From positions 124,001 through 188,000 of the forward strand of contig LDXX01000005.1 in the NCBI GenBank assembly GCA_001442925.1: DNA of 64,000 nt, in the 5' to 3' direction. The position numbers and the translations under genes are program-made. Every line of letters begins with the position of its first letter. The first letter of the stretch is position 1. The notes beneath the pieces are model-generated. The model was given only the letters and a program-made list of their open reading frames with translations, was not told the DNA's origin and ran no database searches. This stretch comes from Candidatus Kryptonium thompsonii. GTDB lineage: Bacteria > Bacteroidota > Ignavibacteria > Kryptoniales > Kryptoniaceae. Positions 46,365-63,630 of this stretch are shown here, one piece after another.

Positions 46365-48659
46365 CTATTTCATGTCTATGATCTTAGCTTCGCCGGGGTT
46401 GAGTTTAACATCAAAACTTTTCTCTCCAACTTCAACCTTGCCATTAAATCCAATATCCGACCCAACAAAAATAAATTTCTCACCCATGTTATTCATAAAA
46501 GGCAAATAAAAAATTCCCCCGTCGCCGTGCGTCTTGATATCCTCATTTATCATTTTTCTTATCTCTATTATTTCCCCATCAAACTTAATCTTTTCGATTT
46601 CCACACCTGATATATAAAGTTTGTTATCAAGTATAAATGCATCAATTCGTGAACCTCTGTAAGGCAAATTCTTCACTCCAAGCCAGTTCCACTCGGCAGG
46701 CAGAGATGGTTTTATTTTTATCTCTTCAAAGTCAAATGAAAATCCCCATAATCCTTCAATGACAAGCCATATATAAGTTGGAGGCATCCACGGGCTTAAT
46801 GTCATCCCCAAACTGATCCCACTTTCACCATGAAGCCTCTCCGGAAACTGCCCGGGGACAAGGTTTTGATAATAAGAAGGATTTTCAGATTCGATTACCT
46901 TATAAATGTTAACCAATGCTTCTGCAACCTTTTCGGGGAAAAATTTTCTCACACCGAAGCCAATCCAAGCCGTCAAATTTGGCCAAACGCCACCCATAAG
47001 TTGAAAACCAAACTCAGGATCATAATTTTTTTCTAACTTACTTACAGTCCTTGCGCCATATTCTGTCCATATGTCCGGTTGAATTAGTCTCATTGAGATT
47101 TTATACTTAAGCTCATGTTCAAAATCCTCAGTGGAAAATTCTTTAAATTCATCTGGAGAATCCCCAAACGCAAAAATTAAAGGAAAAACGAGATCGCCAG
47201 TTATATCATGATGCTTAACACCATTTATATCAATATTTAAAACCGGCAACCCAGTCAGTTCTGAAATCAGCTTCTCATAAAAATTTTTTATTAAACTTCG
47301 AACATAATACTTATATCTCGAAAAATCCTCCTTGTTGCAAAGGTAATACGCAATTTTTGCAACAAGGCCCAAAGCATAAATACATTCTGAATTGATCTCA
47401 GTTACATATCCACTTAAATTATAATTTTCAATAATGTTCCTCCACCCGGTTATGCCATAGACTCCAAAACTATTTGAATCAGAAAAAACCAAATCATCTC
47501 TCAACTGCGAAAGAATATACTCGGCTATACTTTTTATTTTGTCATAATTTTCACGGAGCTCGTTCAAATTACACAACATAGAATGATGATACAAAGCCCA
47601 TATCAAAAGCGGCGTATCATCGTTTATGTTTAAGTTATAATCGTAAGGTTTCGGCTCAACCTCATCAGCGTGGACATATTCAACAACCTTTCCATTTTTG
47701 CATACCCCGTGTTTAAGTGCAAACTCAATAATTTTATGCGAGAACTGCGGAGTCACATAATCCGAGCCCAAAACAAACCACGCAAGATCCCGCATCACAA
47801 CTATATCCTGTGGTGGGTCATTTGTAAAAGCAAAACCGGATCTATAAAAATGCTCAACTCTGCACATATTCACCTTTGCCCATTGAAACCCTGAATTTAT
47901 CACAGCATTTGGCGTAAAAACATAACTCGTATTCAAAATTTCATTAAGCTCATCATTGGAAAGCTTAAAAATCTCATCGTAAAGATCCCTGATATTTTCA
48001 CTTGGTCCTTCTCCACCAATTGAATATAAAAGCAAAATCTCCATTTTTTCTCCGGGTCCCAATTCAACTTTTTGACAAGTTTCGATCTTGACCTCATCAA
48101 CTTCAGCATCGCAGAAGTTAGTTTCTGAGATCAAAAACCGTTTCTCATCGCTTGAATCAAGTGATTTCACTTCAAAAGATTTTGAATCTTTTCTAACTAT
48201 TCTATATCGTTTCTTCTTCTCCTCAACCGGCGGTTGCTTAGTAAAAAAGGGTGAATCAACCGCAGGGATAATTATTTCATGATTTATCAAAATATTTACT
48301 TTGGCATCTTCATTGTTGATAATCTCTATGACATAGAAAAATTTTTTCAATTTATCTTTCTCTGCCTCAAAATGTTCAATTTGAACATACGGGAGAAATG
48401 CTCTCTTGGTTATTGAAAAGTTTCTGGAGTCGCTGAGATATTTTGTCGCCTGTGAAAAAGGCTCAAAAATTGTTTCAACGGGTTTCAATTTTTCAGCACC
48501 AACATAAAATTCGATTCTCCACCTGCCGCAATAAAATTTGTTGTCAAGGGAATACCATAGACCTTCAAGGTTAGTTTCTTTATCAAAGCGAGCGAACAAA
48601 AGAAAATTTCCAAGCGAAGAACCAGTTTTTAAGTTTTCAGCTTTTCTAATATACCTCAT
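46365..48659 (-). CDS. Cytoplasmic glycosidase-like protein with an (alpha/alpha)6 barrel
   Basis: A 764-residue protein with no signal peptide. Residues 1-250 look like a beta-sandwich of the kind found in glycogen-debranching and GH63/65/94-type enzymes (KRAFLPYVQIEHFEAE, YVIEIINNEDAKVNILINHE). From about 260 it becomes a helical barrel: WAKVNMCRVEHFYRSGFAFTND, IVVMRDLAWFVLGSDYV, LNINDDTPLLIWALYHHS, WTEYGARTVSKLE, GVWPNLTAWIGFG and GMTLSPWMPPTYIWLVIEGLWGF. The Asp in RDLAW and Glu or Asp in the EYGARTVS area are possible catalytic residues. Exact family is not recognised. It closes the operon after sugar-import genes, so it probably cleaves the imported oligosaccharide in the cytoplasm. Confidence 0.82.
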   Translation of the reverse strand: MRYIRKAENLKTGSSLGNFLLFARFDKETNLEGLWYSLDNKFYCGRWRIEFYVGAEKLKPVETIFEPFSQATKYLSDSRNFSITKRAFLPYVQIEHFEAEKDKLKKFFYVIEIINNEDAKVNILINHEIIIPAVDSPFFTKQPPVEEKKKRYRIVRKDSKSFEVKSLDSSDEKRFLISETNFCDAEVDEVKIETCQKVELGPGEKMEILLLYSIGGEGPSENIRDLYDEIFKLSNDELNEILNTSYVFTPNAVINSGFQWAKVNMCRVEHFYRSGFAFTNDPPQDIVVMRDLAWFVLGSDYVTPQFSHKIIEFALKHGVCKNGKVVEYVHADEVEPKPYDYNLNINDDTPLLIWALYHHSMLCNLNELRENYDKIKSIAEYILSQLRDDLVFSDSNSFGVYGITGWRNIIENYNLSGYVTEINSECIYALGLVAKIAYYLCNKEDFSRYKYYVRSLIKNFYEKLISELTGLPVLNIDINGVKHHDITGDLVFPLIFAFGDSPDEFKEFSTEDFEHELKYKISMRLIQPDIWTEYGARTVSKLEKNYDPEFGFQLMGGVWPNLTAWIGFGVRKFFPEKVAEALVNIYKVIESENPSYYQNLVPGQFPERLHGESGISLGMTLSPWMPPTYIWLVIEGLWGFSFDFEEIKIKPSLPAEWNWLGVKNLPYRGSRIDAFILDNKLYISGVEIEKIKFDGEIIEIRKMINEDIKTHGDGGIFYLPFMNNMGEKFIFVGSDIGFNGKVEVGEKSFDVKLNPGEAKIIDMK

Positions 48660-48688
48660 TCGGCGTTAAAGTTAATTTTTGTTTTTAA

Positions 48689-49501
48689 TTATTCTTTTAA
48701 ACCCACGGTCGCCATGCTTTCAATGAAATATCTTTGAAAGAATGAATACGCTATGATGATCGGTAATGCAAGTAAAGTTGCTGACGCAAGTTGAACTCCA
48801 AGCTGGCTTCCCGCCTGACCTCCAAGCACGAAAATGGTCACAAGCTGGGGCATGGTCATAAGCTTTTCATCTCTTATAACGATAAGTGGCCATAGAACTT
48901 CATTCCAACTTGACATAAAAGTTAAAATTCCCACCGTTGAAACAGCTGGCTTTGAAAGGGGGATTATTATCTTGAAAAGTATTTGCAAATCGTTGCATCC
49001 ATCAAGACGTGCCGATTCTATCAATGACTCAGGAATTGTTAGGAAAAATTGTCTAAAAACTAAAATCGAAAACGAGCTCATCATCCCGGGCAAAATTAAA
49101 CCAGCATAGGTATCAACAAGCCCAAGTTTTACTATCAAAACATAAGTTGGGATCAGCGTAATTTGAAATGGTATCATCATTGTAAAAAGAATTAAAATCA
49201 GCAGAAACTCCCTACCCCGAAAATTTAACCTTGATAAAGCATATCCAACAATTGAACCAAAAAGTATAACTGAGAATGTAATTGACAGGGAGACAAATAA
49301 GCTGTTAAAAAATGCCCGAATAATTGGGATTTTCCCAAGAACGATTGAATAATTTTTAAAACTTATATTTTTTGAAAAAAACCAAATATCCGCTATTTCA
49401 AACTCCGGTTTTAAAGTCGCAAAAACCATCCACAAGAAGGGATAAGCGAAAACAAAAGCACCAATTATCAAGATAAAGTATGTTAAAATCTTACCTTTCA
49501 A
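48689..49501 (-). CDS. Sugar ABC transporter permease, MalG/LacG-like
   Basis: A 270-residue membrane protein with six hydrophobic segments. The EAA motif is ESARLDGCNDLQILFKIIIP, near residue 170, and VGYALSRLNFRGREFLL and MIPFQITLIPTYVLIVKLGL are typical carbohydrate-uptake transporter (CUT1) permease strings. Overlaps the partner permease by ATGA. Substrate inferred from context as an oligosaccharide. Confidence 0.92.
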   Translation of the reverse strand: MKGKILTYFILIIGAFVFAYPFLWMVFATLKPEFEIADIWFFSKNISFKNYSIVLGKIPIIRAFFNSLFVSLSITFSVILFGSIVGYALSRLNFRGREFLLILILFTMMIPFQITLIPTYVLIVKLGLVDTYAGLILPGMMSSFSILVFRQFFLTIPESLIESARLDGCNDLQILFKIIIPLSKPAVSTVGILTFMSSWNEVLWPLIVIRDEKLMTMPQLVTIFVLGGQAGSQLGVQLASATLLALPIIIAYSFFQRYFIESMATVGLKE

Positions 49502-50361
49502 TATATCCTCCGCTCAATAAATTTTCTTTGCACAACCACAACTGCTAAGATTATCAATGCAAAGAAAAATCCAAGCGTCGCTGCATAGCCCATATGGTTA
49601 AAATAAAATGCCTGATTATAGATATACAGCATCGCTGAAAGAGTGCTATCCATCGGTCCTCCACCGGTCATAATGTATGGCTCAATGAAAAGTGAAAACC
49701 CTCCGATCGTTGATAAGACTACTACAAGAACTACTGTTGGATTTAACATAGGCAAAGTGATTTTGAAGAATTTTTGAAAACCGGAAGCCCCATCAATTTC
49801 AGCAGCTTCGTAAAGTTCCTGGGGTATATTCTGTAACCCAGCCAAGAAGATTACAATATAAAATCCAACATTTTTCCATGTAGCCATGACCGCAATTGAA
49901 GGCATTGCAAGCTCAGGACTTACAAGCCAAGGAATTCTTTTTAATCTAGCCTTAACCAAAACCTGGTTTATAAGTCCAGTTTCATAAGCATACATCTGTT
50001 GCCACAAAATGGTCACAACAACACCAGAAACAACAACGGGTAAAAAATAAAGGGCTCTAAAGAATCCTTTCATCTTTATCTTTTGATTTAAAAGCTGCGC
50101 GAAAAATAGCGCTATAAAAATTTGAAGCGGGATATGAATCGATAAAAAAACTAAAGTATTGAAAAGTGATTTAAAAAATAACTCATCGTTAAACAGCCTA
50201 ACAAAATTTTTAAAACCGATAAACTCCATCGGGGTGGCTACATTCCACCTATGAAAAATTAAAATAAAGGAGAAGACAAGAGGATAAGCAACAAATGTCA
50301 AAAAATAAACAACGTAAGGCAAAACCATAAAATATCCAGCGCCACTTTTAACACTCCTCAT
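49498..50361 (-). CDS. Sugar ABC transporter permease, MalF/LacF-like
   Basis: About 287 residues from the ATG at 50361, which overlaps the binding-protein stop as ATGA; the frame is open nine bases further to another ATG. Six hydrophobic segments; EAA motif YEAAEIDGASGFQKFFKITLP, GFFRALYFLPVVVSGVVVTIL and LNPTVVLVVVLSTIGGFSLF are CUT1 features. Forms the channel with the downstream MalG-like permease. No ATPase gene lies in the locus, so a shared MsmK-like ATPase elsewhere must power it. Confidence 0.92.
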   Translation of the reverse strand: MRSVKSGAGYFMVLPYVVYFLTFVAYPLVFSFILIFHRWNVATPMEFIGFKNFVRLFNDELFFKSLFNTLVFLSIHIPLQIFIALFFAQLLNQKIKMKGFFRALYFLPVVVSGVVVTILWQQMYAYETGLINQVLVKARLKRIPWLVSPELAMPSIAVMATWKNVGFYIVIFLAGLQNIPQELYEAAEIDGASGFQKFFKITLPMLNPTVVLVVVLSTIGGFSLFIEPYIMTGGGPMDSTLSAMLYIYNQAFYFNHMGYAATLGFFFALIILAVVVVQRKFIERRIY

Positions 50362-51665
50362 CTTGACCATTCAAATATAACATTTATTCTCTTTATCAAA
50401 CTTTTAACAGCCTCCTCCGATGTTTTCGCCCCATAAACCGCACAAGCTTCAAATTCCTTCGAGATCACATCAAAAATTTCTTTAAGCTCCATAACCTCAT
50501 CAACGCCTCGCGTAAAAACAACTTGTTCAGCAAAAAATCTCATCTTTGGATTTCGATCAAAATATGCCCTGAATTTTTCACTTTCAAGCAAATCTCCCCT
50601 TATCGGCAATTGATTACAAATCTCAAGCAAGAGTAGATCAGCCTCCTCACTCACCAGAAACTTAACAAATTCCCAAGCTTCTTTTTTATGTTTCGTCGTG
50701 CTAAATATAGCTATATTTTTAGGATCACCATAGGTATAAATTGCACTGCCACCTTGGGCGATAAAATCATCCGGGACCGGAATGGGAGCAAAACTATATT
50801 CAAATCCAGCCGGCTTGTTCATCTCAAGATATGCGATCGTCCATGGACCCGTAAATCTAATCGCAACCTTACCCATCAGAAATGGATCAACTTGGAAGCT
50901 TGCTTTGGGAAAATATTTCTCATCAAAACACTTTTTAAAAAAATCAAAAACTTTTTTAGCTGAGTTGACATCAATTTTTAATTCATCCCCCTCAAAAAAC
51001 GTCTTCCCGCCAGAAGAAGCAATATAAAATGGATAAAAATCAAAAAACCTCTGCCACCATATCGGTCTCGTATCTGTATACCCAGGCCAGATATCAATTT
51101 CTCCATCTCCATTCACATCTTTTCTTATTTTTTCACATGCTTTAAAAAATTCAGAATATGTTCTCGGCGGAGCATCGATGCCGGATTCTTTAAAAATTTT
51201 AACATTATAAAGCATCATTATTGGATTTGTCTTCCAAGGGAATTGATAGAAATGTCCATCTTTTGATCTGAAACTTTCAAGTAAATCAGGCGGAATTCCC
51301 CTTGCATTTACAACCGAATCAAAATCGCTAAACTCATCAAGAGGAATAAGTCCCTTCGCTTTTATATACTCAGCAATTGCACCAGGCCAAATATTTGAGC
51401 AAACATCCGGAGTTGTTCCACCAGCTATAGCAGCAAGTAAAACCTCCTCAGAAGATTGACCTGAGGGAAGCGGTTGAACTTCAACCTTGATATCGGGATG
51501 AAGTTGATTCCATTTCTCAACCAACCTTTTCGCCAACTCGATTTCTTGAGGATTTGCAGAAGGCCAGTACTTCAAACGCACAGTTCCAGCTTCCTCCAAC
51601 TTATCTTTCTGCGATGAACAACCAAAGGTCAACATAAGCCAAAACAAAATCAAGCAAAACCTCAT
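50358..51665 (-). CDS. Sugar-binding lipoprotein of the ABC importer (extracellular solute-binding family 1)
   Basis: A 435-residue protein with a lipoprotein signal ending LTFGC (Cys16). VRLKYWPSANPQEIELAKRL, LVEKWNQLHPDIKVEVQPLP and IAGGTTPDVCSNIWPGAIAEY are the N-terminal lobe of family-1 binding proteins; GKVAIRFTGPWTIAYLE and SAIYTYGDPKNIAIFSTTKHK are the second lobe. Aromatic residues (Trp, Tyr) that would stack on sugar are frequent. Starts by ATGA overlap with the secreted barrel protein and is coupled to the permeases. Confidence 0.93.
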   Translation of the reverse strand: MRFCLILFWLMLTFGCSSQKDKLEEAGTVRLKYWPSANPQEIELAKRLVEKWNQLHPDIKVEVQPLPSGQSSEEVLLAAIAGGTTPDVCSNIWPGAIAEYIKAKGLIPLDEFSDFDSVVNARGIPPDLLESFRSKDGHFYQFPWKTNPIMMLYNVKIFKESGIDAPPRTYSEFFKACEKIRKDVNGDGEIDIWPGYTDTRPIWWQRFFDFYPFYIASSGGKTFFEGDELKIDVNSAKKVFDFFKKCFDEKYFPKASFQVDPFLMGKVAIRFTGPWTIAYLEMNKPAGFEYSFAPIPVPDDFIAQGGSAIYTYGDPKNIAIFSTTKHKKEAWEFVKFLVSEEADLLLLEICNQLPIRGDLLESEKFRAYFDRNPKMRFFAEQVVFTRGVDEVMELKEIFDVISKEFEACAVYGAKTSEEAVKSLIKRINVIFEWSR

Positions 51666-53695
51666 TTCAACATGACAAACTTTTTAATTTTTGTATGATT
51701 AAAAGATTTCAAAAGACAAAAATACACACCGCTTGAGAAAGAATCAAATCTTAATTTGAGAATGCCTGAATTTCCCTCACCTTGAACAGCGCTCGATGTT
51801 AAGTCGAAAATTTCTCTGCCCATGATATCGTAAATTTTTAAACTAAAAGGTTTCCTTGCTTTGTAAAAGATGTTCGCCTCAAAATTAAAAGGATTTGGAT
51901 AAATTTCAAGATCTATTGCTTCATTTTCAAATAAATTTCTCCCCTCAACCTTTGTGATCAAAACTCGCTCAAGATTAAGTTCTCTGCCAGACGGTGAGAT
52001 GAAAACTTTTCTTTCAACAATTGGTTGAACTATGAAATAGTCAATCCACACGAACTCATCATTTGAACTACCATTGAAAAAGATATCAATGGTGTGTTCA
52101 CCATTTGAGAGCTTAAAAACTCCAGTAATTTTATCAATCCAGATATAATCCCCATAAGTTGAGCCTGACATATCAAGGTTAAACTCGTAAACGGAGTCTA
52201 TTACTACTTTAATTCCAGCGTAACCTGATGGAACGGATCTTTTGCGATATTGAAAATAAAGAGTGTAATAACTTAGATCATCATAAACATTATCGATATA
52301 AAACTTGACTCTGATCGCATCTCCGCCCCTGAGCTCAACAAGATAGTTTTTGCTTATATAAGCCCAATTAAATTCATTAACATAAACTTTTTTCGGATTT
52401 CCTGAGAGAGTTATGAAATTCTCAGCTTCAATGATTTTATAAGAGTTATCCGACTTTGTCTTATAGAAAATATATTTTGATGCGACCTCGTCGTAAAGCA
52501 CCGTCTGCAAACCAATAAGCCCTTCCACAACTGATTCTGCTCCTGCGTTAAGATTTAAACTTCCATCTCTTTTGACGGCATCGTAAAATCTTCCCGTCGA
52601 GGTATCATAAACAGATTTCCCAGCGATGTTATTCCCAAGCCACCATGAAGCATAAAGCCCACCCATCATTTTGTAAGTCGTATCACCAGTCATATTCCCA
52701 TATTCGACAAAAGCTTGAACGATTGGGGCAATTCCATAATTTATCTGGTCACCTCTATCCGGATATGGTTTTAAATCTGTAAGGTCAAAAGAAAAAAACA
52801 TTCTTTTGTAGAAGTAATCTATCTCTTTTCTTGCCGACTCGATCCATTCGAAATTATTAAAAATTTTCCCAGCAACGAGAAGCGCGTAAGATTGCCTGCT
52901 TCCCCACGAATGCCAAATGTAAATATTTGGGGTAAAAGATGGGTGCACACCAAATGGAAAATCATCAACATCTCCAAACTGATAAGTTGAAATTGCTTTG
53001 CAAAGTTTTTCGACCACCCAACGCGCCCTTTCACTTTTTGATATTTCATAATAAAGAGACGCCCCAAGGACCGCTTCAGCTGAGGCATCAGAACCATTTT
53101 CAAGAAGCCAATAACCTTGTGCTGGAACCTTCCATGCGATAAATGTATCGTAAATGTCTGATTTATTTATTGTCCTTATAGCCTTCGAAAGAGCTTTTTC
53201 TATCCTAGAAGCAAGCGTATCCTTAAACTCGCCCTCAATATTAAGTTTTGAAAATAAATTATATGCATATCCCATTGCCCAAAGGGCTCTGCAAGCCCAC
53301 CATCTAAAAGTATCATTGTTACTTGTCCGACCAAATTTATTTATCGTCAGATCTGAATAAACGAAGTTATAAAATCCTCCATCATCAGCTTGCATTTTCA
53401 AAATGAACTTCAGCAAAAGCTTCGCTTGATTCAAACTATGTTCATCGCGAAATTTTTCATAATACATCAAATATGCAATCACAGCCCTCGCCGCATCATC
53501 AACACAAGAGATCCCCTCATCCGCTGGATGAACATATCTGTAATCTGGATAATTTGAATAAATGTGAATTATAGCAACCGTATCGCCACCCATCAAAACC
53601 TTTTCAACGAGATAGTCAATATGTGCTAAGTTTATATTTAAACTTTGTGCGTAAATTTTCTGAAAAATCAGAACCAAAATTAGAACTTTTCTCAC
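51662..53695 (-). CDS. Secreted (alpha/alpha)-barrel glycosidase-like protein with binding module and T9SS-like sorting domain
   Basis: About 677 residues from a GTG at 53695 (14 bases after the previous stop, GGGA seven bases upstream), which makes VLILVLIFQKIYAQ a clean signal peptide. Residues 20-400 form a helical barrel: HPADEGISCVDDAARAVIAY, MQADDGGFYNFVYSD, DTFRWWACRALWAMGYAY, GSDASAEAVLGASLYYE and SWGSRQSYALLVAGKIF. Around 430-570 is a galactose-binding-like or CBM6/35-like beta-sandwich (IIEAENFITLSG, GEHTIDIFFNG, DEFVWIDYFIVQP). The last 80 residues (IYPNPFNFEANIFYK, LKIYDIMGREIFDL, VYFCLLKS) are a T9SS-type sorting domain. Catalytic residues and the family are not identified. Confidence 0.86.
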   Translation of the reverse strand: MRKVLILVLIFQKIYAQSLNINLAHIDYLVEKVLMGGDTVAIIHIYSNYPDYRYVHPADEGISCVDDAARAVIAYLMYYEKFRDEHSLNQAKLLLKFILKMQADDGGFYNFVYSDLTINKFGRTSNNDTFRWWACRALWAMGYAYNLFSKLNIEGEFKDTLASRIEKALSKAIRTINKSDIYDTFIAWKVPAQGYWLLENGSDASAEAVLGASLYYEISKSERARWVVEKLCKAISTYQFGDVDDFPFGVHPSFTPNIYIWHSWGSRQSYALLVAGKIFNNFEWIESARKEIDYFYKRMFFSFDLTDLKPYPDRGDQINYGIAPIVQAFVEYGNMTGDTTYKMMGGLYASWWLGNNIAGKSVYDTSTGRFYDAVKRDGSLNLNAGAESVVEGLIGLQTVLYDEVASKYIFYKTKSDNSYKIIEAENFITLSGNPKKVYVNEFNWAYISKNYLVELRGGDAIRVKFYIDNVYDDLSYYTLYFQYRKRSVPSGYAGIKVVIDSVYEFNLDMSGSTYGDYIWIDKITGVFKLSNGEHTIDIFFNGSSNDEFVWIDYFIVQPIVERKVFISPSGRELNLERVLITKVEGRNLFENEAIDLEIYPNPFNFEANIFYKARKPFSLKIYDIMGREIFDLTSSAVQGEGNSGILKLRFDSFSSGVYFCLLKSFNHTKIKKFVMLK

Positions 53696-53708
53696 AACAA
53701 AATCCCGT

Positions 53709-54746
53709 TTAATATTCAATTCCGAGAACAACTGTGTGAACTCCTTTTAACCTTCCATAGTCATTAAAAGAATAATCAAACTTAACCACCGTTTTACTAA
53801 ACGGAATTTTTGTCCTCAAACCAACTCCCAAGGATAACCCGCCATCAGCATCTTTAAGAAAAAGCATCTGGTTCCCAATTCTAAGGAAAAACAAATCCTT
53901 AAAAGAATACTCCGCCCCAAGGTTTAGATATTGGTAATTATCACTTGGAGTAACCGCATCAGTTGAGATTAAAAGCTTGTTGTTTTCAGTTTTAAATACA
54001 TAAGCAGAAAGACCAAACTGAAAGTTAAGTGGAAGTTGCCAACTTTCCGTCTCAAGCATCGCTGGAATTCTATCGTTGTTCCCATACTTGTTGGGATCGG
54101 GGTCGTAAAAAACTCTCGCATCTCTTCCATACATTCTCATGCTAGTCCCAAAATTTGAAATTGTTGCACCTATCATCATACCGCCAAGAAAATCAGTTTT
54201 AAAGAGCGTCCCGACATCAAGAGCGACACCCCATGCGGACATATGCCAAATTCTTTGCTGAATGTATTTAAAATTAAAACCAATTGAAAACCTATCGGTA
54301 AGGCTCCTCGCATATGTTAAACCTATGGCAAAATCAGTTGCGTTAAAGTATTCGCCCGTTCCCTCTGGTCTTTCTACCGTTCTTACTTCCATATCTGGAA
54401 CAGTTAAAGTAGTTAAACTCGCCCCAACCGTCCCAATATTACCAACGGGAATGGCAACACCGATAAAGCCAAACTTTATATCGGCTATCCAGCTTGTGTA
54501 CTGAAATATCGCTTCAATTCTATCAAACCTTGAGATGCCACCGGGATTCCAATATATTGCGCTTGCGTCATTTGCAACAGCAACAAACGAAGCACCCATC
54601 CCGGTTGCCCTGCCCCCAACAGGTATCTCAAGAAATGGAGCAGCTGTTGTAGCAACTTTTGAAACATTTGAAACAAATCTTTGGGCAAATACAACTTCTA
54701 AAGCAAAGCTCAGCGAAATTAAGAGAAAGAGAATTAACCTTTTCAT
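53709..54746 (-). CDS. PorV-like (UPF0164) outer-membrane beta-barrel
   Basis: About 345 residues from the ATG at 54746; the longer frame runs into the upstream gene. Signal peptide LILFLLISLSFALEVVFAQ, then AAPFLEIPVGGRATGMGASF, VAVANDASAIYWNPGGISR and NYQYLNLGAEY, ending HTVVLGIEY. This matches the PorV/UPF0164 group of FadL-like barrels. PorV is the shuttle protein of the T9SS that carries cargo from the translocon to the attachment complex. Here it sits inside a sugar locus next to T9SS-tagged proteins, so it may be a dedicated paralogue. It lies 20 bases after the 1,060-residue surface protein. Confidence 0.88.
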   Translation of the reverse strand: MKRLILFLLISLSFALEVVFAQRFVSNVSKVATTAAPFLEIPVGGRATGMGASFVAVANDASAIYWNPGGISRFDRIEAIFQYTSWIADIKFGFIGVAIPVGNIGTVGASLTTLTVPDMEVRTVERPEGTGEYFNATDFAIGLTYARSLTDRFSIGFNFKYIQQRIWHMSAWGVALDVGTLFKTDFLGGMMIGATISNFGTSMRMYGRDARVFYDPDPNKYGNNDRIPAMLETESWQLPLNFQFGLSAYVFKTENNKLLISTDAVTPSDNYQYLNLGAEYSFKDLFFLRIGNQMLFLKDADGGLSLGVGLRTKIPFSKTVVKFDYSFNDYGRLKGVHTVVLGIEY

Positions 54747-54766
54747 AATTGCAAAAACTTTTCTTT

Positions 54767-57700
54767 TTACTTTATCACTGCAAATCTTCCAATTTTTTCT
54801 CCTATCCCAGGAGCCTCGACATGATAAATGTAAATTCCATAAGCTATGTCCATCCCATCCTTTGAGACAAGATCCCAAGATACAGCACCGTAATTATCTG
54901 TTCCGTTGTAAACGATCGTATCAACGAGATAACCTCTTATCGTGTAAATTCTTATAGTGCAATTCTTGGGTATATTTATAAACCAAATTTTTCTCTCGCC
55001 CCTTCCAGCTCTATATCTATTTGCTGGTTCCCATGAAGCAGTCGCAACATATGGATTTGGAACCACCGCAATTTTATCGAGATCATGCTTCGCCTTTTCG
55101 ATGTCAATTTTTTGCCCTCTGACCTTAAATTCAAAATACTCTCCATTTCTAAATGGTTTCTTCGTAGCTATGAGAAAAACATCTCCCGGTGATGGTGGGA
55201 TTTGAACAGGCTTCAAAGTATCCTCAAAAAATTGAACTCTCCATGTTGCTTTCCAACTCCTTGAACTTGGTGGCTGAGTTGCTGAATCACCTCCAAGCAC
55301 AATTATAAGCCTATCCCCAGGCGATAATATTGAATCTTTATCAACATCGAAGAAAATGAAATCAGCTTTTTTATTTTCTGTTAAATTCCAAACTGTAAAT
55401 TTAACTGGTATTCTTTGCTGACCAAAAATCAAAGCAAGAGAAGTATCAACAACTTTATCACTAAATCTAACCTCAAAATCAGCGGGATACCTTATATTTC
55501 GTGCAACGAAGGTCGGATCAAGGTCAACTCTAACTATATAGTTTGAATTACCTTTTACCCAACCAGTCCTGTTATTATCAAGTGAAACTGATGAATCATT
55601 ATAGAGATAAATTATCAAACCATCAAAGACCGGAGACTCTTGACCGTAAATGCTCAATTCAACTGAATCGACGATTTTTCGACCATCGCTCATATCATAG
55701 ATTGAATACTTTGGCACCGGCGAATTATAAAATTTCGAAGTATCAGCAAAAATAACCCTGTAAATATGTCCATCCTTTACTGAATCTGGTTGAAGAAGGT
55801 TGATTTGAATTTTACCTGTTCCAGGACCAATATGTGCTATATTACCATCCAAACCAGCTTCAATATATCCAGCGGATGGGGGATTTGGAGTTACGATTGC
55901 GGTGTTTATATCTGGTTTAACTGTGCCAGTTACATCAGCTTTTATAATAGCGGTGCACTCAGATGGAGCAATACCATCAATGTTGCCAAGAGCATCCCTT
56001 GTAACATAACCACGATCGTATGAAACAACCGCATAATAATAAGTTTGACCATTCTGAACATCATAATCAACAAACGAATGCCTTAAACCAGAGTCATCAC
56101 CAAGGTAATATTTCAAGCCGTAAATATCAATTGGATGATAACCTTTAATTCCATTAACAAGATCAAATTGTGCAATTGGTTTTTTAAACAATTTATTCCC
56201 ATGCGCATCTGTAATGACAAATGCTTCCAAAAAGCTCGGATCGGTGCTTTTGTAAATTTTATAACCTTCAAAATCATACTCTTGTAAAAATGGATCCCAT
56301 GAAAGTTCGGCTCTCGAATCCCAATACAAAGTCACTTTTTTATCCCCAGGAATTGCAACAAGCCGTGGTTTTTCAGGTGGCTTAGCAAATCTATAATTTG
56401 CATTGTAAATTTGTTGAACTGTCTTTTTTCTTTTTATCAAATCATTTCTATCTTGACCAAAAAGAAGCGCCATTGAAAACCTTTCAACATGCCCAGCTGG
56501 CATTGGGAAAATTCCAGATGAGAAAAACATACCAAGGTTAACAGATTGAAGAAGTTGATCCCTGGCTGGAAGTGGAGCTGTGAAAACGCTCCAATTTTGC
56601 TCATCATCCCAAAGTTCATAAGTATGAACCGGGAAGATGGAAAAACCAGTTAAACCAATTTGATCGGACTCATCTTTATCAAGAATTCCAAAATTTGGCT
56701 CACCCTGATCAGGACGCCCATTGCCCTCTGAACCATCCGCATCTGGACCTGTATAACCCTCATCAAGAGGCCCAATTCCATCACTTCCGACATCATCGTT
56801 CAAAGGCTCTCCATTATCCCACCTGCCATTTTCATTTAAATCGGTAAATCCACGCCAGTTCATATTTTCATCAGCCGTCCACCAATAACCTTGTCTAACA
56901 GCTGGTATATCATCAACGCTCGAATAATTATAAAACCTTAAAAACTTACCCAAATCATAATTTGCTTGAATATAAGCTATGATATTTTCACGACCCTTAA
57001 TTAGCATTCCTGCATCAGGGTCATTTCTTCGTTCATCAATTATCCCGTCATCGTCGTTATCTTTTCCATCATTTTGGATTCCAGGACTTTCAAGAAAGGC
57101 GTAACCAGCGACACCAACAGGTCCCCATCTTCCCGGTGTGCCAAGTCCATCTGAATCGAAAGCCCAAGCGATGTCAAGTTCGGTATCATACAAACCACTG
57201 TCATCTCCCGAATCATCTGTTCCACCAACTCCCCAATCAATATATTGAGCAAATAAACATTTTTGATAACTCGTTTTTCCCTCGTTCAGAATTTCGTAAT
57301 GCCAAAATATAACATCTTGAGCAAGAACATGCGACCATTGAAATCCACGCATTGCAACTTCCATTCCTATTCCACGCCTCGTTGTATCATCCGGGTCAGG
57401 ATAAAAATTCCACTCTTCATCCGGGTCATCATCAAAGACAAAATATGTTTCAAGGTCAGCATTCTTAACTCCCTTGCCAAAATATCCATTCCAAAATCCA
57501 GCCCAATCAGGCGGTCTATCGGGCCAAAAAGCTGGCCATGTTGATGGATCGTTGCTTATCGCCGGTTTCGGCTGCGTTGGATTAGCATAACCAGGCAAAG
57601 GCGCCCAACCCCAAGGAGTTCCATCCGGACCAATGTCGATAAACTCACGATACATTGTCTCCATCGGATGAATTATCTTCCCACTTCTATCTCTTGTTTC

Positions 57701-57949
57701 AACTTGAACTATCATTGCGACGCCATCAACATACGAATGACCGCTCCCCTTGGGCCACTCACCACTCGGCTGATCAGGCCAATGTGCTACTTCACCATGA
57801 TTAAAAAACATAGTCCTAACCATGTTTCCATCCATTATCCCCTGCTTAGTGTACTTCCTGTGCCCAACATTTGGATCTGGCTTAACATGCTGTGAATGAA
57901 GAAAACTTGTGACAAGAGTAAATAACAAGATGAACATTAAACCACGCAT
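54767..57949 (-). CDS. Large secreted surface protein with FnIII-like and T9SS-like sorting domains
   Basis: A 1,060-residue protein with a signal peptide (FILLFTLVTSFLHSQ). The first 470 residues are Trp-, Gly- and Asp-rich, with calcium-loop-like stretches near 296 (DGKDNDDDGIIDE) and 366-420 (DLNENGRWDNGEP, GPDADGSEGNGRPD). A fibronectin-III-like segment lies at about 520-645 (KKVTLYWDSRAELSWDP, YDFEGYKIYKSTDP, YYYAVVSYDRGY). The C-terminus (about 975 onward) has VVPNPYVATASW, IRIYTIRGYLVDTI and YGIYIYHVEAPG, a sorting-type domain. It follows the TonB receptor in the place a SusD would occupy, but shows no SusD TPR pattern or lipobox. Glycan binding or calcium-dependent adhesion is possible. 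Confidence 0.9.
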   Translation of the reverse strand: MRGLMFILLFTLVTSFLHSQHVKPDPNVGHRKYTKQGIMDGNMVRTMFFNHGEVAHWPDQPSGEWPKGSGHSYVDGVAMIVQVETRDRSGKIIHPMETMYREFIDIGPDGTPWGWAPLPGYANPTQPKPAISNDPSTWPAFWPDRPPDWAGFWNGYFGKGVKNADLETYFVFDDDPDEEWNFYPDPDDTTRRGIGMEVAMRGFQWSHVLAQDVIFWHYEILNEGKTSYQKCLFAQYIDWGVGGTDDSGDDSGLYDTELDIAWAFDSDGLGTPGRWGPVGVAGYAFLESPGIQNDGKDNDDDGIIDERRNDPDAGMLIKGRENIIAYIQANYDLGKFLRFYNYSSVDDIPAVRQGYWWTADENMNWRGFTDLNENGRWDNGEPLNDDVGSDGIGPLDEGYTGPDADGSEGNGRPDQGEPNFGILDKDESDQIGLTGFSIFPVHTYELWDDEQNWSVFTAPLPARDQLLQSVNLGMFFSSGIFPMPAGHVERFSMALLFGQDRNDLIKRKKTVQQIYNANYRFAKPPEKPRLVAIPGDKKVTLYWDSRAELSWDPFLQEYDFEGYKIYKSTDPSFLEAFVITDAHGNKLFKKPIAQFDLVNGIKGYHPIDIYGLKYYLGDDSGLRHSFVDYDVQNGQTYYYAVVSYDRGYVTRDALGNIDGIAPSECTAIIKADVTGTVKPDINTAIVTPNPPSAGYIEAGLDGNIAHIGPGTGKIQINLLQPDSVKDGHIYRVIFADTSKFYNSPVPKYSIYDMSDGRKIVDSVELSIYGQESPVFDGLIIYLYNDSSVSLDNNRTGWVKGNSNYIVRVDLDPTFVARNIRYPADFEVRFSDKVVDTSLALIFGQQRIPVKFTVWNLTENKKADFIFFDVDKDSILSPGDRLIIVLGGDSATQPPSSRSWKATWRVQFFEDTLKPVQIPPSPGDVFLIATKKPFRNGEYFEFKVRGQKIDIEKAKHDLDKIAVVPNPYVATASWEPANRYRAGRGERKIWFINIPKNCTIRIYTIRGYLVDTIVYNGTDNYGAVSWDLVSKDGMDIAYGIYIYHVEAPGIGEKIGRFAVIK

Positions 57950-57975
57950 AGCAATTAGTGATAGTTTTTTAGAGA

Positions 57976-60615
57976 TTAGAAGTCAAATGAAATTCCAAAA
58001 ATAATTTGCCTCGGCTCAGAATAAAAATCAGGGCGTTTAAAGTATTCTTCAACGGTATTTATACCACGCGGTCTACCTGAATAAATCATTGAAAGCGTGT
58101 ATCCAGCCCTGCCAGTATCTCCAAAAACTTCAAGTTCATTCTTGATATCAAACAGATTGTAAATTTTAACAAAAAATTGAGCATTAAATCCAAACATCTT
58201 GAACAATTTATAAAAATACATATCAAAAGTGTAAACTGCTGGCTTGTTATCGCTGTTCTCAACCGCTGTCCTCTGATTTTGAAAAGCTGGCGTGTACGGT
58301 AAACCCGAACCAATCTTACCTATGAAACTCAGGACAAAATTATCAGGTTGACCAAGTGAAATTGTAAAGTTAAGTGAATGTCGCCTGTCCCAATCCAATG
58401 GAACAAGCTGTTTATTCCCCTCTATCGGTGGATCAGCTTGATTATTTAAAAACTCAGCATCCGGGTCAGAAGCATTGCCACGCGCAAGTTGAAGAGTATA
58501 ATCAAGCGTCGCACCAATTCCACCTCTAAATCTCTTTTCCAACGATATAGTTATCCCTCTAACATTTCCATAATCTCGATTAATATACCTTGCAAACTTA
58601 TCAACATTTAGATACTGGTGGATTTGAGTCCCAAGCAAATTTCTGATGTCTTTATAATAACCTGTTATATCAATTGCTATATCATCAGCTAATTGTTGTT
58701 GCAGTCCAATCTCATAGCTAACCGTTCTTTCCGGTTGAAGGTCAGCGTTCCCAATTTTACTCTTCAATCTTCCAACTTCAATTTCAAATTCAGGATTCGT
58801 GTAAAGAAATTCAAATGGTGGTATTTGAAAGAAATGTCCATAAGAGATATGAATCACACCGCGATCGGTTATTGGATAAGCCAACCCAATCCTTGGACTC
58901 AATTGATACTTTGGCTTTGCGCGTCTGAATAAACTATCCGGCAAAGGTCTATCGGAAGGTAAATGATCAGGATCGATTAAAACTTTCCCATTAGGTTCAA
59001 AGTAATCAAATCTCAACCCGACATTTGCGACAAGATATTCAAACTCCATCTTGTCCTGAATATAAGCTGAAAACTCATACGGTCTATGAAGATATTCATT
59101 GTTGTTAAATGCAGTTCTAGGCGGAAGTGATGGCACAAATCTATCTTTAAACCTTTCATCCCTTACAATTTCATACTCGCGAAGCCATAAACGATGAAAC
59201 CGGGTTTCAACCCCTGTTTTAATTTGATGCGTATTGGTAATCTGGTTCGTATAATCAACTTTTGCAATATAAGTTCTCGTGTTTCTGAAAAAGTGCCACA
59301 TTTGCGCTCCGCCTGTCAAAAAAGCATTGTTGCTTGCATCCTGAAGACGCTTCGGATCTGGATAAAGGTTTATGTCCTTCCAAACATATTGCTGATAATC
59401 ATTGTAAAGCAATGAACCTTTAACAGTTAGAAAAGCTTTTGAGCTTAAAACATGTGTGTATGAAAGTGTAAGTGTATACGCATACTGATACCTTTTGTAA
59501 TCGCCATCCGGATTGTATTTAAAGTTATGATCATAAATTTTATAAAAACGCCGTTGATATAAACCCTCAATGTTAAGCTTATTACTTGGGGTTACTTTGA
59601 AAGATAACTTGCCTTGTAATGTCAGCCTTCGTTCTGGATTCATTGGAACATAGGAACTATCGCCTGTTGCACCGATATACCACTTTGATGGATCATCCGA
59701 GCTAAAATTTGAAGAATCATAAGGTGTGAAAATTCTTCTACCATAGATCCAACCATCATTTTTGTAATACCGCCACGAAAGGAAGAAATTAACTTTATTT
59801 TTAAAAACTGGTCCCCCAAGTGTTCCCTGGAAATTATAAATATCTGTGGGGTTGACTCTCTCTATATTCATAAACAAATCTCTATTCGATGAAACATAAT
59901 CGCCTGTATAAACCGAAAAACTTCCAGTATATCTTTCCCCACCTTCTTTCGTTACAATGTTAACTACACCGGACATCGCCTGTCCATATTCAGCATTAAA
60001 TGTCCCGGTTACTATTTCCATCTCCTGAATGGCGTGATTTTCAACTTGGATGGCATAAGTGTTTGAAAACACATCGTTTACTGGAATCCCATCGATCATA
60101 TAAGCGACCTCTCCAATCCTCCCACCACGAAAATGCCCCTCAACAACTCCTGCTTGCAAATTAATTATATCCGTAAAATTTTCAACTGGCAATTTCGCAA
60201 TGATATCAGAAGAAACCTTTGAACTTGTCGAAGTTAAATCCCTCTGAACAAGCGGTCTTTCAGCAACGACAACAACCTCCTCACCAAGTTCGATCGCAGC
60301 TTCCTCAAGTTTAAAATCAACCCGCGTGGTTTGGTCAACAGAAACACGAACATTGGTTACCCGCACTGTTTTAAATCCAACAGCACTTGCCCTTACAGTG
60401 TAAACCCCGGGGGGAACATTGAGAATAACATAATTACCCTGCATATCTGTGGCTGCACCAAGCGTAGTTCCCTCCACTATTACATTTACAGCAAAAAGTG
60501 GTTCACCGGTTGAGGCATTTATAACTTTTCCAGCTATTTTCCCCGTTGTGCCTGAAAAGAGAAGAGAAAATCCAAAAGTCAAGGAGATAAGCGAAAGAAT
60601 TGCTTTTTTCAACAT
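57976..60615 (-). CDS. TonB-dependent receptor with N-terminal carboxypeptidase-regulatory-like domain
   Basis: An 879-residue outer-membrane transporter. After the signal peptide, residues 25-105 are a CarboxypepD_reg-like domain (GKIAGKVINASTGEPLFAVN, GNYVILNVPPGVYTVRASAVG), then VVVVAERPLVQRDL, the plug (VENFTDIINLQAGVVEGHF, VAYMIDGIPVNDV, FNAEYGQAMSGVVNIVTKEGG) and a 22-strand-type barrel ending IFGISFDF. The barrel part contains SPRIGLAYPITDRGVIHISYG and LQPERTVSYEIGLQQQL, typical of these receptors. It takes up a ligand with TonB energy; a sugar polymer fragment is inferred from neighbours. Without a SusD beside it, it is not a classical SusC. Confidence 0.93.
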   Translation of the reverse strand: MLKKAILSLISLTFGFSLLFSGTTGKIAGKVINASTGEPLFAVNVIVEGTTLGAATDMQGNYVILNVPPGVYTVRASAVGFKTVRVTNVRVSVDQTTRVDFKLEEAAIELGEEVVVVAERPLVQRDLTSTSSKVSSDIIAKLPVENFTDIINLQAGVVEGHFRGGRIGEVAYMIDGIPVNDVFSNTYAIQVENHAIQEMEIVTGTFNAEYGQAMSGVVNIVTKEGGERYTGSFSVYTGDYVSSNRDLFMNIERVNPTDIYNFQGTLGGPVFKNKVNFFLSWRYYKNDGWIYGRRIFTPYDSSNFSSDDPSKWYIGATGDSSYVPMNPERRLTLQGKLSFKVTPSNKLNIEGLYQRRFYKIYDHNFKYNPDGDYKRYQYAYTLTLSYTHVLSSKAFLTVKGSLLYNDYQQYVWKDINLYPDPKRLQDASNNAFLTGGAQMWHFFRNTRTYIAKVDYTNQITNTHQIKTGVETRFHRLWLREYEIVRDERFKDRFVPSLPPRTAFNNNEYLHRPYEFSAYIQDKMEFEYLVANVGLRFDYFEPNGKVLIDPDHLPSDRPLPDSLFRRAKPKYQLSPRIGLAYPITDRGVIHISYGHFFQIPPFEFLYTNPEFEIEVGRLKSKIGNADLQPERTVSYEIGLQQQLADDIAIDITGYYKDIRNLLGTQIHQYLNVDKFARYINRDYGNVRGITISLEKRFRGGIGATLDYTLQLARGNASDPDAEFLNNQADPPIEGNKQLVPLDWDRRHSLNFTISLGQPDNFVLSFIGKIGSGLPYTPAFQNQRTAVENSDNKPAVYTFDMYFYKLFKMFGFNAQFFVKIYNLFDIKNELEVFGDTGRAGYTLSMIYSGRPRGINTVEEYFKRPDFYSEPRQIIFGISFDF

Positions 60616-60643
60616 TTCATCACTTCAAATTAATTTTGAAGAG

Positions 60644-60661
60644 CGGGGGCAAAAGCCCCCG
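60644..60661 (-). terminator. Intercistronic hairpin between the binding-protein gene and the TonB receptor gene
   Basis: On the reverse strand CGGGGGC and GCCCCCG pair perfectly (seven bp) around TTTT, nine bases after the stop of the upstream gene and 28 bases before the receptor start. The tail is CTCTTCAAAATT, so termination would be partial. It may reduce receptor expression relative to the first gene, or stabilise the 5' message. Confidence 0.7.
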
Positions 60662-60669
60662 AAAAGTGA

Positions 60670-62148
60670 TCACTTCAATAACAACATCTTCTTAGCCACT
60701 ATATTATTTCCAGCAACTAAACGATAAATATAAACACCTGATGCAACCTTTAGCCCATTATCATCAGTTCCATCCCAATAAACTTTATATCTCCCCGGAT
60801 TGTGATAAGAACTAATCAATGTTTTAATTCTTTGACCTGCAAGGTTATAAATCTCAATTCTAACATGCGAAGCCTCCGGCAAAGCATACTCAATCACAGT
60901 TGATGGATTAAATGGATTGGGATAGTTCTGATAAAGTTCGTATCTACTTGGGATTAAATCTTTATCAGCAATTGGTTTATCATCAACGCCAACAATCACA
61001 TCACTTATTGGTGCTAAAGCAAACTCATCGAAGAACACTTTACCATAGAACAAAGGCCAGAACCTTGCCCTCACACTTACACCAACAACATCATCATCAG
61101 GAACCGTTATCACAGTTGCAAACTGCGTCCAACCCAACCTCGTCAAACCTTGATCCTTCATGAACTTCAAATCAAACTTGTAATCCTCTGCCCTCTTCTC
61201 ATTCCAACCTGTGTTCGGACCAACTACCTTAGTGTGCCACGTCCACGTAAAACCAATCGCATAACTCGGATTATCCAAAGAATCTGCTATCAAACTGTCT
61301 ATCTTTACCCACGCACTTAAAACATACTTCTTACCCTTCCCCTTCACAGGCAACTCATATATATCACTTATCCAAACCACCTCATCACTATCCCAATCCC
61401 ACTCCGCAAGCTTCAACGACTTGTTACCACTATACGCAGCCTCAGAACTCACAGTCGCAGTTATATACTGATTCGTCCCAAGCTCATAATCCTTCCACCA
61501 ATAAAACCACCCCTCATTCGCATTAAAACTATTGTTAAACAAACTACCTACCCAATCCCATCCATCCGGCTTCCTACCATACAAAAACAAATCATCAAAC
61601 CAAACCGTACCAGTCGCATCCTTGCCCCCAACCAATTTAACTATCAACTTAAACGCTGTGTCAGGCAAAACTACACTAACATCATTCTTAACCTCAGTCC
61701 AATCAACACTACCACTTGTCTGCGGAACATATACCCTGACAGGCTGACCCCCTATCAAATTGCCCTGCTTGTCATAAAAGTAAAAATCAAGATAAAACTT
61801 CTGATCATCATTTACGGGATTTGTGTTAACCCCACTCGTCTTAACATATCCACCCATCACAAGCTCCTTCCCAGGGAATATAAACGGAGCCCAATATGTG
61901 CACATGTTCGAACTCTCCCAATATACCGAACTTGATGTAGCCTGCTTGCTTATCTTCAACGAATATGACGCACTCCTCGATGCATCAACAGCCCACTCCA
62001 ATGTCGCACCTGTCGCACCAACCGCCTTAAATAACGCCGGATTTCCAGACTCAAAACCACCATTTTTTAGAACATTGACATATTGACCGAATGCAAATGA
62101 GATCACCAAGATTACAAACAATCCGAGATAAGAAATTTTACGCCACAT
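60670..62148 (-). CDS. Secreted carbohydrate-binding-like protein with T9SS sorting domain
   Basis: A 492-residue protein with signal peptide (YLGLFVILVISFAFG) and AAAGGAGGTTAAAG before the ATG. Two CBM4/9/22-like jelly-roll modules follow: residues 25-190 (LKNGGFESGNPALFKAVG, YSLKISKQATSSSVYWES, VWFDDLFLYGR) and 205-375 (WFYWWKDYELGTNQYITATV, SGNKSLKLAEWDWDS, VFFDEFALAP). The last 85 residues (YQNYPNPFNPSTVIEYALPE, IYNLAGQRIKTL, GVYIYRLVAG) are a strong T9SS type-A sorting domain. No catalytic domain is present. Codon usage between about 61,050 and 62,075 is strikingly different from the C-terminal part (AAG, TTG, GAG, AGT instead of AAA, CTT, GAA, TCA). First gene after the LacI regulator. 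Confidence 0.9.
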   Translation of the reverse strand: MWRKISYLGLFVILVISFAFGQYVNVLKNGGFESGNPALFKAVGATGATLEWAVDASRSASYSLKISKQATSSSVYWESSNMCTYWAPFIFPGKELVMGGYVKTSGVNTNPVNDDQKFYLDFYFYDKQGNLIGGQPVRVYVPQTSGSVDWTEVKNDVSVVLPDTAFKLIVKLVGGKDATGTVWFDDLFLYGRKPDGWDWVGSLFNNSFNANEGWFYWWKDYELGTNQYITATVSSEAAYSGNKSLKLAEWDWDSDEVVWISDIYELPVKGKGKKYVLSAWVKIDSLIADSLDNPSYAIGFTWTWHTKVVGPNTGWNEKRAEDYKFDLKFMKDQGLTRLGWTQFATVITVPDDDVVGVSVRARFWPLFYGKVFFDEFALAPISDVIVGVDDKPIADKDLIPSRYELYQNYPNPFNPSTVIEYALPEASHVRIEIYNLAGQRIKTLISSYHNPGRYKVYWDGTDDNGLKVASGVYIYRLVAGNNIVAKKMLLLK

Positions 62149-62263
62149 AACTTTAACCTCCTTTTGTTTGTGGATTTAAAAATTTCAATTCAAAAAGAAC
62201 TTAAAGATCAAAGCATATAGTTTTGGTTAACCTTCACCTCCAACGCTATTTGTTTTTGAAAAC

Positions 62264-63331
62264 TTAAATTAAACTTTCATCTATCTTGCTATCGTCGAAA
62301 ACATAGAAACCTTTTTTCTTGGCTCCGCAAGAATCCCTTACAACCAATTTAACTGGGAGGTAAACTCGATTGATCCCTGAATTTGGTTTCCTTATCATTT
62401 CAACAAGATGCTTAACTGCAACAACACCGAGTTCCTCTTTATCAACCCTAACCGTCGTAAGCCGAGGTTCAACATGGATACAAGCTTCTATATCATCAAA
62501 ACCGACCACAGCGACCTCATCGGGAACTTTTATGCCTTTCTCCTTTAAGAATCTCAAACACCCAATAGCCATAGCGTCATTTGCTGCGAAGATCGCCTCT
62601 GGTTTTAACTTCGTGAAGAGTTTTTCGCATGCTCTATATCCATTTATCACCCTTGTATCAGGTTCTTCAACTACACACATATCCACAGCGCATTCCACGC
62701 CAGCTTTCTCAAGCGCCTTTTTAAATCCCTCAAATCTTCCCCTTATACTTGGATGCTCAATATCACCACCGATAAAAGCAACTTTCCTATAGCCAAGCTT
62801 TAAAAGATGATCAGTCGCCATCTCCCCACCACCAACATTATCAATCATCACAGCTGAAACTTTCTTACCAGAAAGGTCATAATCAACAAGGATATATGGA
62901 AGTCCCAGTTCCTCAACATACTTAACATATTTTTGATTTATTTTCCCCGCAAAAATCACACCATCAACATTATTTTCAAGTAAAAATCTTGGAATGGCAC
63001 TTTTTGAAAACTGCGTAGGGACGGTCGTTAAAAGAACATAATAGTTATAAGCCCTGGATTCAAACTCAGTTCCAAGGAAAATTTTAGTGTAAAATGGTTC
63101 ACTCCTTGAGAAATGCTCCTCTGTTAAAATGAAACCTATATTCCCCGTCTTCCTTGAGGCAAGACTTCTGGCACTTCTCGCTGGATAATACCCAAGTTCT
63201 TCAATAGCTTGTAAAACTTTTTGCTTCGTTTCCTCACTCACATTCCCCTTATTATTGATGACAAGAGAAATTGTAGAGATCGACAACCCCGTCTTTTTCG
63301 CAACATCTTTAATCGTAACTCTTTTATTCAT
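62264..63331 (-). CDS. LacI-family transcriptional regulator
   Basis: About 355 residues from the ATG at 63331; upstream frame codons are excluded because the family starts here. The helix-turn-helix is at the N-terminus (VTIKDVAKKTGLSISTISLVIN), followed by the hinge YYPARSARSLASRKTGNIGF and the sugar-binding domain (GVIFAGKINQKYVKY, VMIDNVGGGEMATDHLLKLGYRKVAFIGG, AIFAANDAMAIGCLRFLKEKGIKVPDEVAVVGFDD, PRLTTVRVDKEELG). It is the first gene of the locus, and its own start overlaps a TAAAACGCTTTAA site. Expected to repress the locus and be released by a sugar. Confidence 0.95.
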   Translation of the reverse strand: MNKRVTIKDVAKKTGLSISTISLVINNKGNVSEETKQKVLQAIEELGYYPARSARSLASRKTGNIGFILTEEHFSRSEPFYTKIFLGTEFESRAYNYYVLLTTVPTQFSKSAIPRFLLENNVDGVIFAGKINQKYVKYVEELGLPYILVDYDLSGKKVSAVMIDNVGGGEMATDHLLKLGYRKVAFIGGDIEHPSIRGRFEGFKKALEKAGVECAVDMCVVEEPDTRVINGYRACEKLFTKLKPEAIFAANDAMAIGCLRFLKEKGIKVPDEVAVVGFDDIEACIHVEPRLTTVRVDKEELGVVAVKHLVEMIRKPNSGINRVYLPVKLVVRDSCGAKKKGFYVFDDSKIDESLI

Positions 63332-63343
63332 AAAACGCTTTAA
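63331..63343. promoter_or_regulatory. LacI-type operator candidate overlapping the regulator start codon
   Basis: TAAAACGCTTTAA, with the central CG expected of LacI-family sites and a near-palindromic half-site pair. It covers the first base of the regulator ATG on the reverse strand. The same 13 bases occur in inverted orientation at 63406, so the pair is not a chance single match. Confidence 0.6.
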
Positions 63344-63405: not shown

Positions 63406-63418
63406 TTAAAGCGTTTTA
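63406..63418. promoter_or_regulatory. Second LacI-type operator candidate
   Basis: TTAAAGCGTTTTA is the exact reverse complement of the site at 63331-63343. Centres are 75 bases apart, close to seven helical turns, which would suit looping between two repressor dimers. Confidence 0.6.
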
Positions 63419-63630
63419 CTAGCTATAATATAATAAATAATTTTGCCTTTGTCAAGTCCCCAAAGGATTTATTACCATTGGAATGACTAAACTACCCCTC
63501 CCACACTTTAATTCCCCAAATACTAACTCAACACAAATAGCCTACCACTTTTAAGTTCCTTCCAAGCAAAGTTATAGACCCCACCCTGTAACACTCGGAA
63601 CACTGGCTTTGAAAAAATACTTTAAACTAA

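Follow-up and report, generated by a model that had tools for sequence, protein, structure and literature searches.

How does a bacterium catch a glycan at its surface when the locus for using that glycan encodes no SusD? Polysaccharide uptake outside the classical Bacteroidia is largely guessed from SusCD, and the question is raised here by a locus of the hot-spring bacterium Candidatus Kryptonium thompsonii that lies in a 64,000-nucleotide stretch of contig LDXX01000005.1, hereafter the window (G000:C5:124001-188000 in our numbering; host genome, 2.59 Mb). The locus is well supported as a SusD-less glycan-use operon. The explanation that we favour on balance is that its TonB-dependent receptor, a surface protein of 1,060 amino acids (aa) termed BIG and a PorV-family barrel form a surface-capture unit (TonB-BIG-PorV), with a beta-mannoside as the likeliest substrate. 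Ten open reading frames (ORFs) follow one another on the - strand, the first starting at 63331 and the last ending at 46365; several overlap, and the gaps measure approximately 115 bp or less. The ORF list agrees with the ten-gene row of the original prediction, an earlier reading of the same DNA. Protein roles were assigned by Pfam and NCBIfam scans, and the features, in window coordinates, are as follows.

63427..63455, - strand: promoter-like site, the best in the region (TTGACA-17-TATATT, 11/12 matches)
63406..63418, - strand: LacI operator-like palindrome O1, TAAAACGCTTTAA
63331..63343, - strand: LacI operator-like palindrome O2, overlapping the lacI start codon
62264..63331, - strand: LacI-family regulator, 355 aa, operon gene 1 (Pfam LacI E 1e-18, Peripla_BP_3 E 2e-38)
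60670..62148, - strand: secreted carbohydrate-binding-type protein with type A tail of the type IX secretion system (T9SS), 492 aa (TIGR04183, FlgD_ig, weak CBM_4_9)
57976..60615, - strand: TonB-dependent receptor with N-terminal CarboxypepD_reg, non-SusC, 879 aa (PF00593 E 2.5e-26)
54767..57949, - strand: BIG, surface protein, 1,060 aa (models and fold search)
53709..54746, - strand: PorV-family outer-membrane barrel, 345 aa (NF033709, PDB 6h3i_F)
51662..53731, - strand: secreted (alpha/alpha) glycosidase-like protein with T9SS tail, 689 aa (PDB 7tem, YPO2471)
50358..51665, - strand: sugar-binding lipoprotein (SBP) of an ATP-binding cassette (ABC) importer (SBP_bac_1, lipobox-like TFGC)
49498..50370, - strand: ABC permease, UgpA/MalF type (BPD_transp_1 by Pfam/NCBIfam)
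48689..49501, - strand: ABC permease, UgpE/MalG type (BPD_transp_1 by Pfam/NCBIfam)
46365..48659, - strand: cytoplasmic MGH1/GDE-like (alpha/alpha)6 glycoside hydrolase, 764 aa, no signal peptide

The PorV gene starts near 54746, and the mechanical ORF start at 54878 is wrong. The co-location of a regulator, an outer-membrane transporter, surface binding proteins and carbohydrate enzymes is that of a polysaccharide utilisation locus (PUL) in the broad sense. As in SusCD loci of Bacteroides, a receptor, surface glycan-binding proteins, enzymes and a regulator stand together and uptake is of the TonB-dependent kind. In contrast to those loci, SusD is absent, its place beside the receptor being taken by BIG and the PorV-like barrel, the receptor is not a SusC, an ABC importer and a LacI regulator are present, and the surface proteins are of the T9SS type where those of Bacteroides are lipoproteins.

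The absence of SusD, part of the original prediction, was borne out. No SusD match was found by Pfam or NCBIfam among the ten locus proteins. The receptor carries CarboxypepD and Plug domains and a TonB barrel (Pfam) and was rejected as a SusC/RagA-family member at 68 bits against TIGR04056 (cut-off 368), when the true SusC proteins of the same genome, used as positive controls, reached 478 and 508 bits. The structure check that had been proposed for BIG was run, and the idea that BIG is a hidden SusD was rejected on the strength of the models, a fold search and hhalign: no SusD stood among the best 50 fold matches listed, and hhalign of BIG against both host-genome SusDs gave below 1%. The claim holds at the level of the locus and not of the genome, which has two tandem SusCD pairs outside it at C5:3-9 kb (L104, G000:C5:1-16000); these two SusD genes are the only ones found in the genome.

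We know of no BIG, PorV or T9SS partners at the CUT loci of Xanthomonas. TonB receptors for plant sugars that work without SusD are already described there (PMC1790865), so that the absence of SusD alone is not the new part of the present locus. The order LacI-binding protein-TonB-BIG-PorV-SBP-permease-permease-glycosidase-like protein recurs in the loci of relatives, among them Ignavibacteriales, Calditrichota, KSB1, Neomarinimicrobiota and WOR-3/Stahlbacteria, and the same order was seen in dozens of genomes of several phyla that have been little studied, far beyond chance. The comparison of neighbourhoods in relatives, suggested with the original prediction, supports one functional locus. 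A TonB receptor gene lies directly upstream of BIG in 33 of the 34 loci with an upstream gene, PorV is one of the next two genes downstream of BIG at 34 of 37 loci, and each receptor has one adjacent BIG.

The five proteins TonB, BIG, PorV, SBP and permease were all present at 25 loci, on which distance correlations were computed; inference was drawn from the contrast between protein pairs on the same loci, and permutation counts, which take no account of phylogeny, were set aside. The correlation was 0.94 for TonB-BIG, 0.91 for TonB-PorV and 0.89 for BIG-PorV, compared to 0.84 for SBP-permease, a known physical pair, and 0.56-0.67 for the outer-membrane trio against SBP or permease. When the other Kryptonia were left out, the values were 0.88-0.92 for the trio, 0.84 for SBP-permease and 0.42-0.55 across the groups, and jackknifed differences between within-group and across-group values stayed at least at 0.28. 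The simplest reading of these sequence distances is that there are two units, one in the outer and one in the inner membrane, and TonB, BIG and PorV are likely to form one complex.

The locus PorV belongs to the PorV family (NF033709, 214 bits, cut-off 90) and matches PorV in the SprA-PorV structure (PDB 6h3i_F, E 5e-9). It resembles that translocon in being a PorV-family barrel of the kind that handles T9SS C-terminal domains, and differs from it in being a paralogue beside a TonB receptor, not beside PorU or SprA. It is one of 12 proteins above the cut-off in the host genome, in which the core PorV (317 bits) adjoins PorU elsewhere; the T9SS core is encoded (PorU, 1019 bits; SprA, 998 bits). 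The T9SS tails claimed for the binding protein and the secreted barrel-fold protein were both found, at 36.7 and 35.3 bits respectively against the TIGR04183 cut-off of 23. The binding protein also carries FlgD_ig (E 2.5e-10) and a weak CBM_4_9 (E 0.006); in its counterpart from a relative, CBM_4_9 matches three stretches (E 2e-27). A gene for a SurA/PpiC-like chaperone often lies between or near BIG and PorV in relatives (L055:6453-7829, L111:8732-10309, L049:2799-4193), and this chaperone is a possible assembly factor for the module.

BIG was modelled with 30 aligned sequences. It consists of an N-domain of super-beta-sandwich type (approximately residues 26-525), an FN3/Ig-like middle and a tail (approximately 960-1060) resembling a T9SS C-terminal domain, and no Pfam family matched it, the N-domain included. 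The full-length model is mostly beta (mean pLDDT 77, pTM 0.61), and the N-domain modelled alone reached pLDDT 82 and pTM 0.83. Fold search with the N-domain led to structures of glycoside hydrolase (GH) families GH94, GH149 and GH116 and of dextran dextrinase with a probability near 1. We take these structures to share a super-beta-sandwich; the predicted N-domain resembles these carbohydrate enzymes in fold type, and in part. The best fold matches of full-length BIG include fibronectins, with PorZ and PorU also among the matches. The tail scored below family cut-offs and aligned with the tail of its neighbour by hhalign at E 5e-5 and a probability of 68%. Mean column identity was 57% in the N-domain compared to 48% in the whole protein. 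The N-domain is present in 47 of 118 genomes sampled across the phylum, with up to 13 matches per genome. Among named relatives the closest is a Candidatus Kryptonia genome, whose BIG is 94% identical. A role for BIG as a SusD-like lid on the receptor is plausible as a prediction.

Repeats of the TonB-large surface protein-PorV arrangement were found in the host genome at five further loci (L096, L097, L098, L099 and L100). The L096 triad is accompanied by LacI, CBM20 and a GH13 amylase in an alpha-glucan locus, which indicates that the architecture serves different glycans. L102, tried as a further triad, proved to be PorU, which has only the C-terminal tail in common with BIG. Genome G063 holds five loci of the TonB-large surface protein-PorV type, with LacI visible upstream in four. 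The conserved module also occurs in complete genomes, including G067, which has a BIG gene near C1:393982 and which, by its LacI-GH43-Xyn10A-TonB cluster, is probably Rhodothermus marinus (DSM 4252).

The xylan locus of R. marinus, Rmar_1067-1081, is like the present one in its LacI, T9SS-tailed enzymes and TonB receptor, and a SusCD pair has been reported for it (PMC6987092). In G067, unlike in the window, neither BIG nor PorV follows the TonB receptor of the xylan cluster, and Rmar_1070-1072 were rejected there as a TonB-BIG-PorV triad. In G063, the sister of G067, the module adjoins a GH10 gene. Beside matching LacI and GH10 genes, TonB-BIG-PorV stands at L135 (G063) and GH43-Xyn10A with a different TonB receptor at L143 (G067), a difference that looks like a module swap.

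Two palindromes of 13 bp precede the operon. TAAAACGCTTTAA lies directly downstream of the -10 box at 63406-63418 and recurs at 63331-63343, 75 bp away. Promoter-like sites in total occur in a chance-level number, and the one at 63427..63455 is singled out by position. A genome-wide search gave three sites matching the palindrome, of which two belong to the locus; a reversed control pattern was equally frequent genome-wide, and the evidence for an operator is therefore its position and conservation. The same pair is kept in other Kryptonia (L045, L119, L120), and relatives have TCGAAACGTTTCGA-type palindromes ahead of lacI. The third site, at C7:24266, was not supported as a regulon member, with no obvious glycan gene there and the reversed control as frequent. 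LacI may autorepress the whole operon.

In the mechanism that we propose, LacI would repress a single promoter through the two palindromes approximately 75 bp apart until imported sugar relieves repression. The T9SS, to judge from the tails, would bring the binding protein, the secreted glycosidase-like protein and BIG to the cell surface, where PorV would receive or hold BIG through its C-terminal domain next to the TonB receptor. The N-domain of BIG could then capture an oligosaccharide or cap the barrel, the job that SusD does for SusC, and TonB would drive entry of the sugar through the outer membrane. Passage across the inner membrane would fall to the SBP-permease-permease importer with an ATPase encoded elsewhere, and cleavage of the imported sugar to the cytoplasmic MGH1-like enzyme.

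Several observations weigh against this explanation. The fold match of the N-domain is partial (TM about 0.3, rmsd 10-17 Å), the large protein of L098-L100 shares only its C-terminal part with BIG, and similar distances can arise from joint transfer without contact. For a complex of BIG with the receptor, and for glycan binding by BIG, the evidence is indirect, namely adjacency and co-divergence. BIG might instead be a structural or adhesive T9SS surface protein (substrate adhesion, S-layer-like) anchored by the PorV paralogue, with the TonB receptor working alone in the CUT manner. Its modular build with FN3/Ig-like domains and the fibronectins among its full-length fold matches agree with such a role, as does the known uptake of sugars by TonB systems that lack SusD (PMC1790865). 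We nevertheless regard this as unlikely, since BIG co-diverges with the receptor as tightly as with PorV (0.94, 0.89), each receptor has its own adjacent BIG, and an N-domain conserved above the rest of the protein is unusual in an adhesin. A very improbable alternative is that TonB, BIG and PorV do not take up sugar and serve to export the T9SS proteins encoded at the locus or to assemble them at the surface. Known systems use PorV as a T9SS shuttle protein, and tailed cargo is encoded next door; yet the core PorV is elsewhere beside PorU, both plug and barrel of a TonB receptor are present, and genes for a sugar importer and a LacI regulator belong to the locus.

The substrate was given as not known in the original prediction and can be narrowed to probable beta-mannosides from the GH130 and GH2 genes of relatives. 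Orthologous loci carry genes for GH130, GH2 beta-mannosidase, GH5 or MGH1-like proteins, and a Sphingomonas plasmid cluster combines LacI, UgpC, the glycosidase-like protein, SBP, permeases, GH130 and DUF1861, with no BIG. In Thermoanaerobacter, an ABC importer is paired with GH130 beta-1,2-mannoside phosphorylases (PMC4264767). That cluster, Teth514_1785-1796, is similar to the window locus in its SBP and two permeases, its GH130 phosphorylases serving mannosides; it differs in having no outer-membrane part, and the window locus in having no internal GH130. A further point against our explanation is that neither GH130 nor GH2 is encoded in the window locus, the single GH130 of the genome lying elsewhere. 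That the operon acts on another glycan, the GH130 and GH2 of relatives reflecting mixed or adapted loci, must be taken seriously as only somewhat improbable: (alpha/alpha) enzymes of the MGH1/GDE type act on several glycans, and TonB-BIG-PorV modules occur also at alpha-glucan and GH10-linked loci. Against this, GH130 or GH2 turns up repeatedly at the orthologous loci, which have the SBP, the permeases and the glycosidase-like protein in common, and the BIG-less Sphingomonas cluster ties the same proteins to GH130. Because of these neighbours in relatives, a beta-mannoside, of whatever linkage, is our best guess.

We further propose, tentatively and at somewhat short of an even chance, that BIG is the founding member of a class of partners for TonB receptors that is new and has no relation to SusD, of super-beta-sandwich type, T9SS-delivered and PorV-held, acting in a three-part glycan uptake machine of Kryptonia, Ignavibacteria, Rhodothermus-like bacteria, Calditrichota, KSB1 and Marinimicrobia. 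SusD-less TonB uptake and mannoside use by ABC importers with GH130 are each known separately. No prior description of the TonB-BIG-PorV module, its conservation or its T9SS link was found in the open-access literature, subscription papers and preprints not being covered, nor one of SusD-less T9SS loci in these phyla in the same literature. This suggests that the module is an undescribed surface-capture unit, and an earlier description outside open-access literature is possible. A PUL search that depends on SusCD pairs would miss every BIG-bearing locus. If the proposal is true, the T9SS is tied directly to nutrient uptake, and bacteria have a second means of capturing glycans at their surface. 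The proposal is testable in the thermophile R. marinus, which is cultivated and for which gene disruption has been reported (PMC8614978).

The claim that all steps are encoded in the locus stands for the regulator, the surface and outer-membrane proteins, SBP, permeases and enzyme. Likewise, ABC import across the inner membrane is represented by the SBP (SBP_bac_1 E 7e-38; nearest PDB 4gqo, Lmo0859 of Listeria, E 7e-53) and two permeases; no ABC ATPase lies within the locus. A MalK/UgpC-type protein encoded at G000:C4:55696-56700 is the candidate closest at hand; it is 67% identical to the ATPase in the locus of a relative and is the likely, though putative, ATPase of the importer. The secreted barrel-fold protein matches PDB 7tem (YPO2471) at E 2e-47, with an extra C-terminal module besides the T9SS tail in Kryptonia, and E72, D78, D79, R82, D215, D384, E399 and E403 are near-invariant in 28 homologues. 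The cytoplasmic enzyme is MGH1/GDE-like (MGH1-like_GH matched 6 of 8 homologues, at best with E 3e-13; 7vma matched at E 6e-8), and its gene is linked to the locus in genomes with the same order.

Other T9SS proteins were observed. A recurrent protein of approximately 1,040 aa with PKD and Laminin_G_3 domains (L060:10355-13486, L051:6461-9646) has a conserved PY.MRDWK-type motif in its N-terminal half, which matches no assigned domain, and is perhaps a new enzyme family. At 34232-37570 the window encodes a protein of 1,112 aa in which several Lamin Tail Domains are combined with a T9SS tail of the CHU_C kind. At L107 (G000:C12:38000-43517), the gene of a PorV paralogue precedes those of a NagK-like kinase and of a GH3-beta-lactamase fusion that resembles RmNag3 of R. 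marinus, probably a chitin or muropeptide locus interrupted by the contig end.

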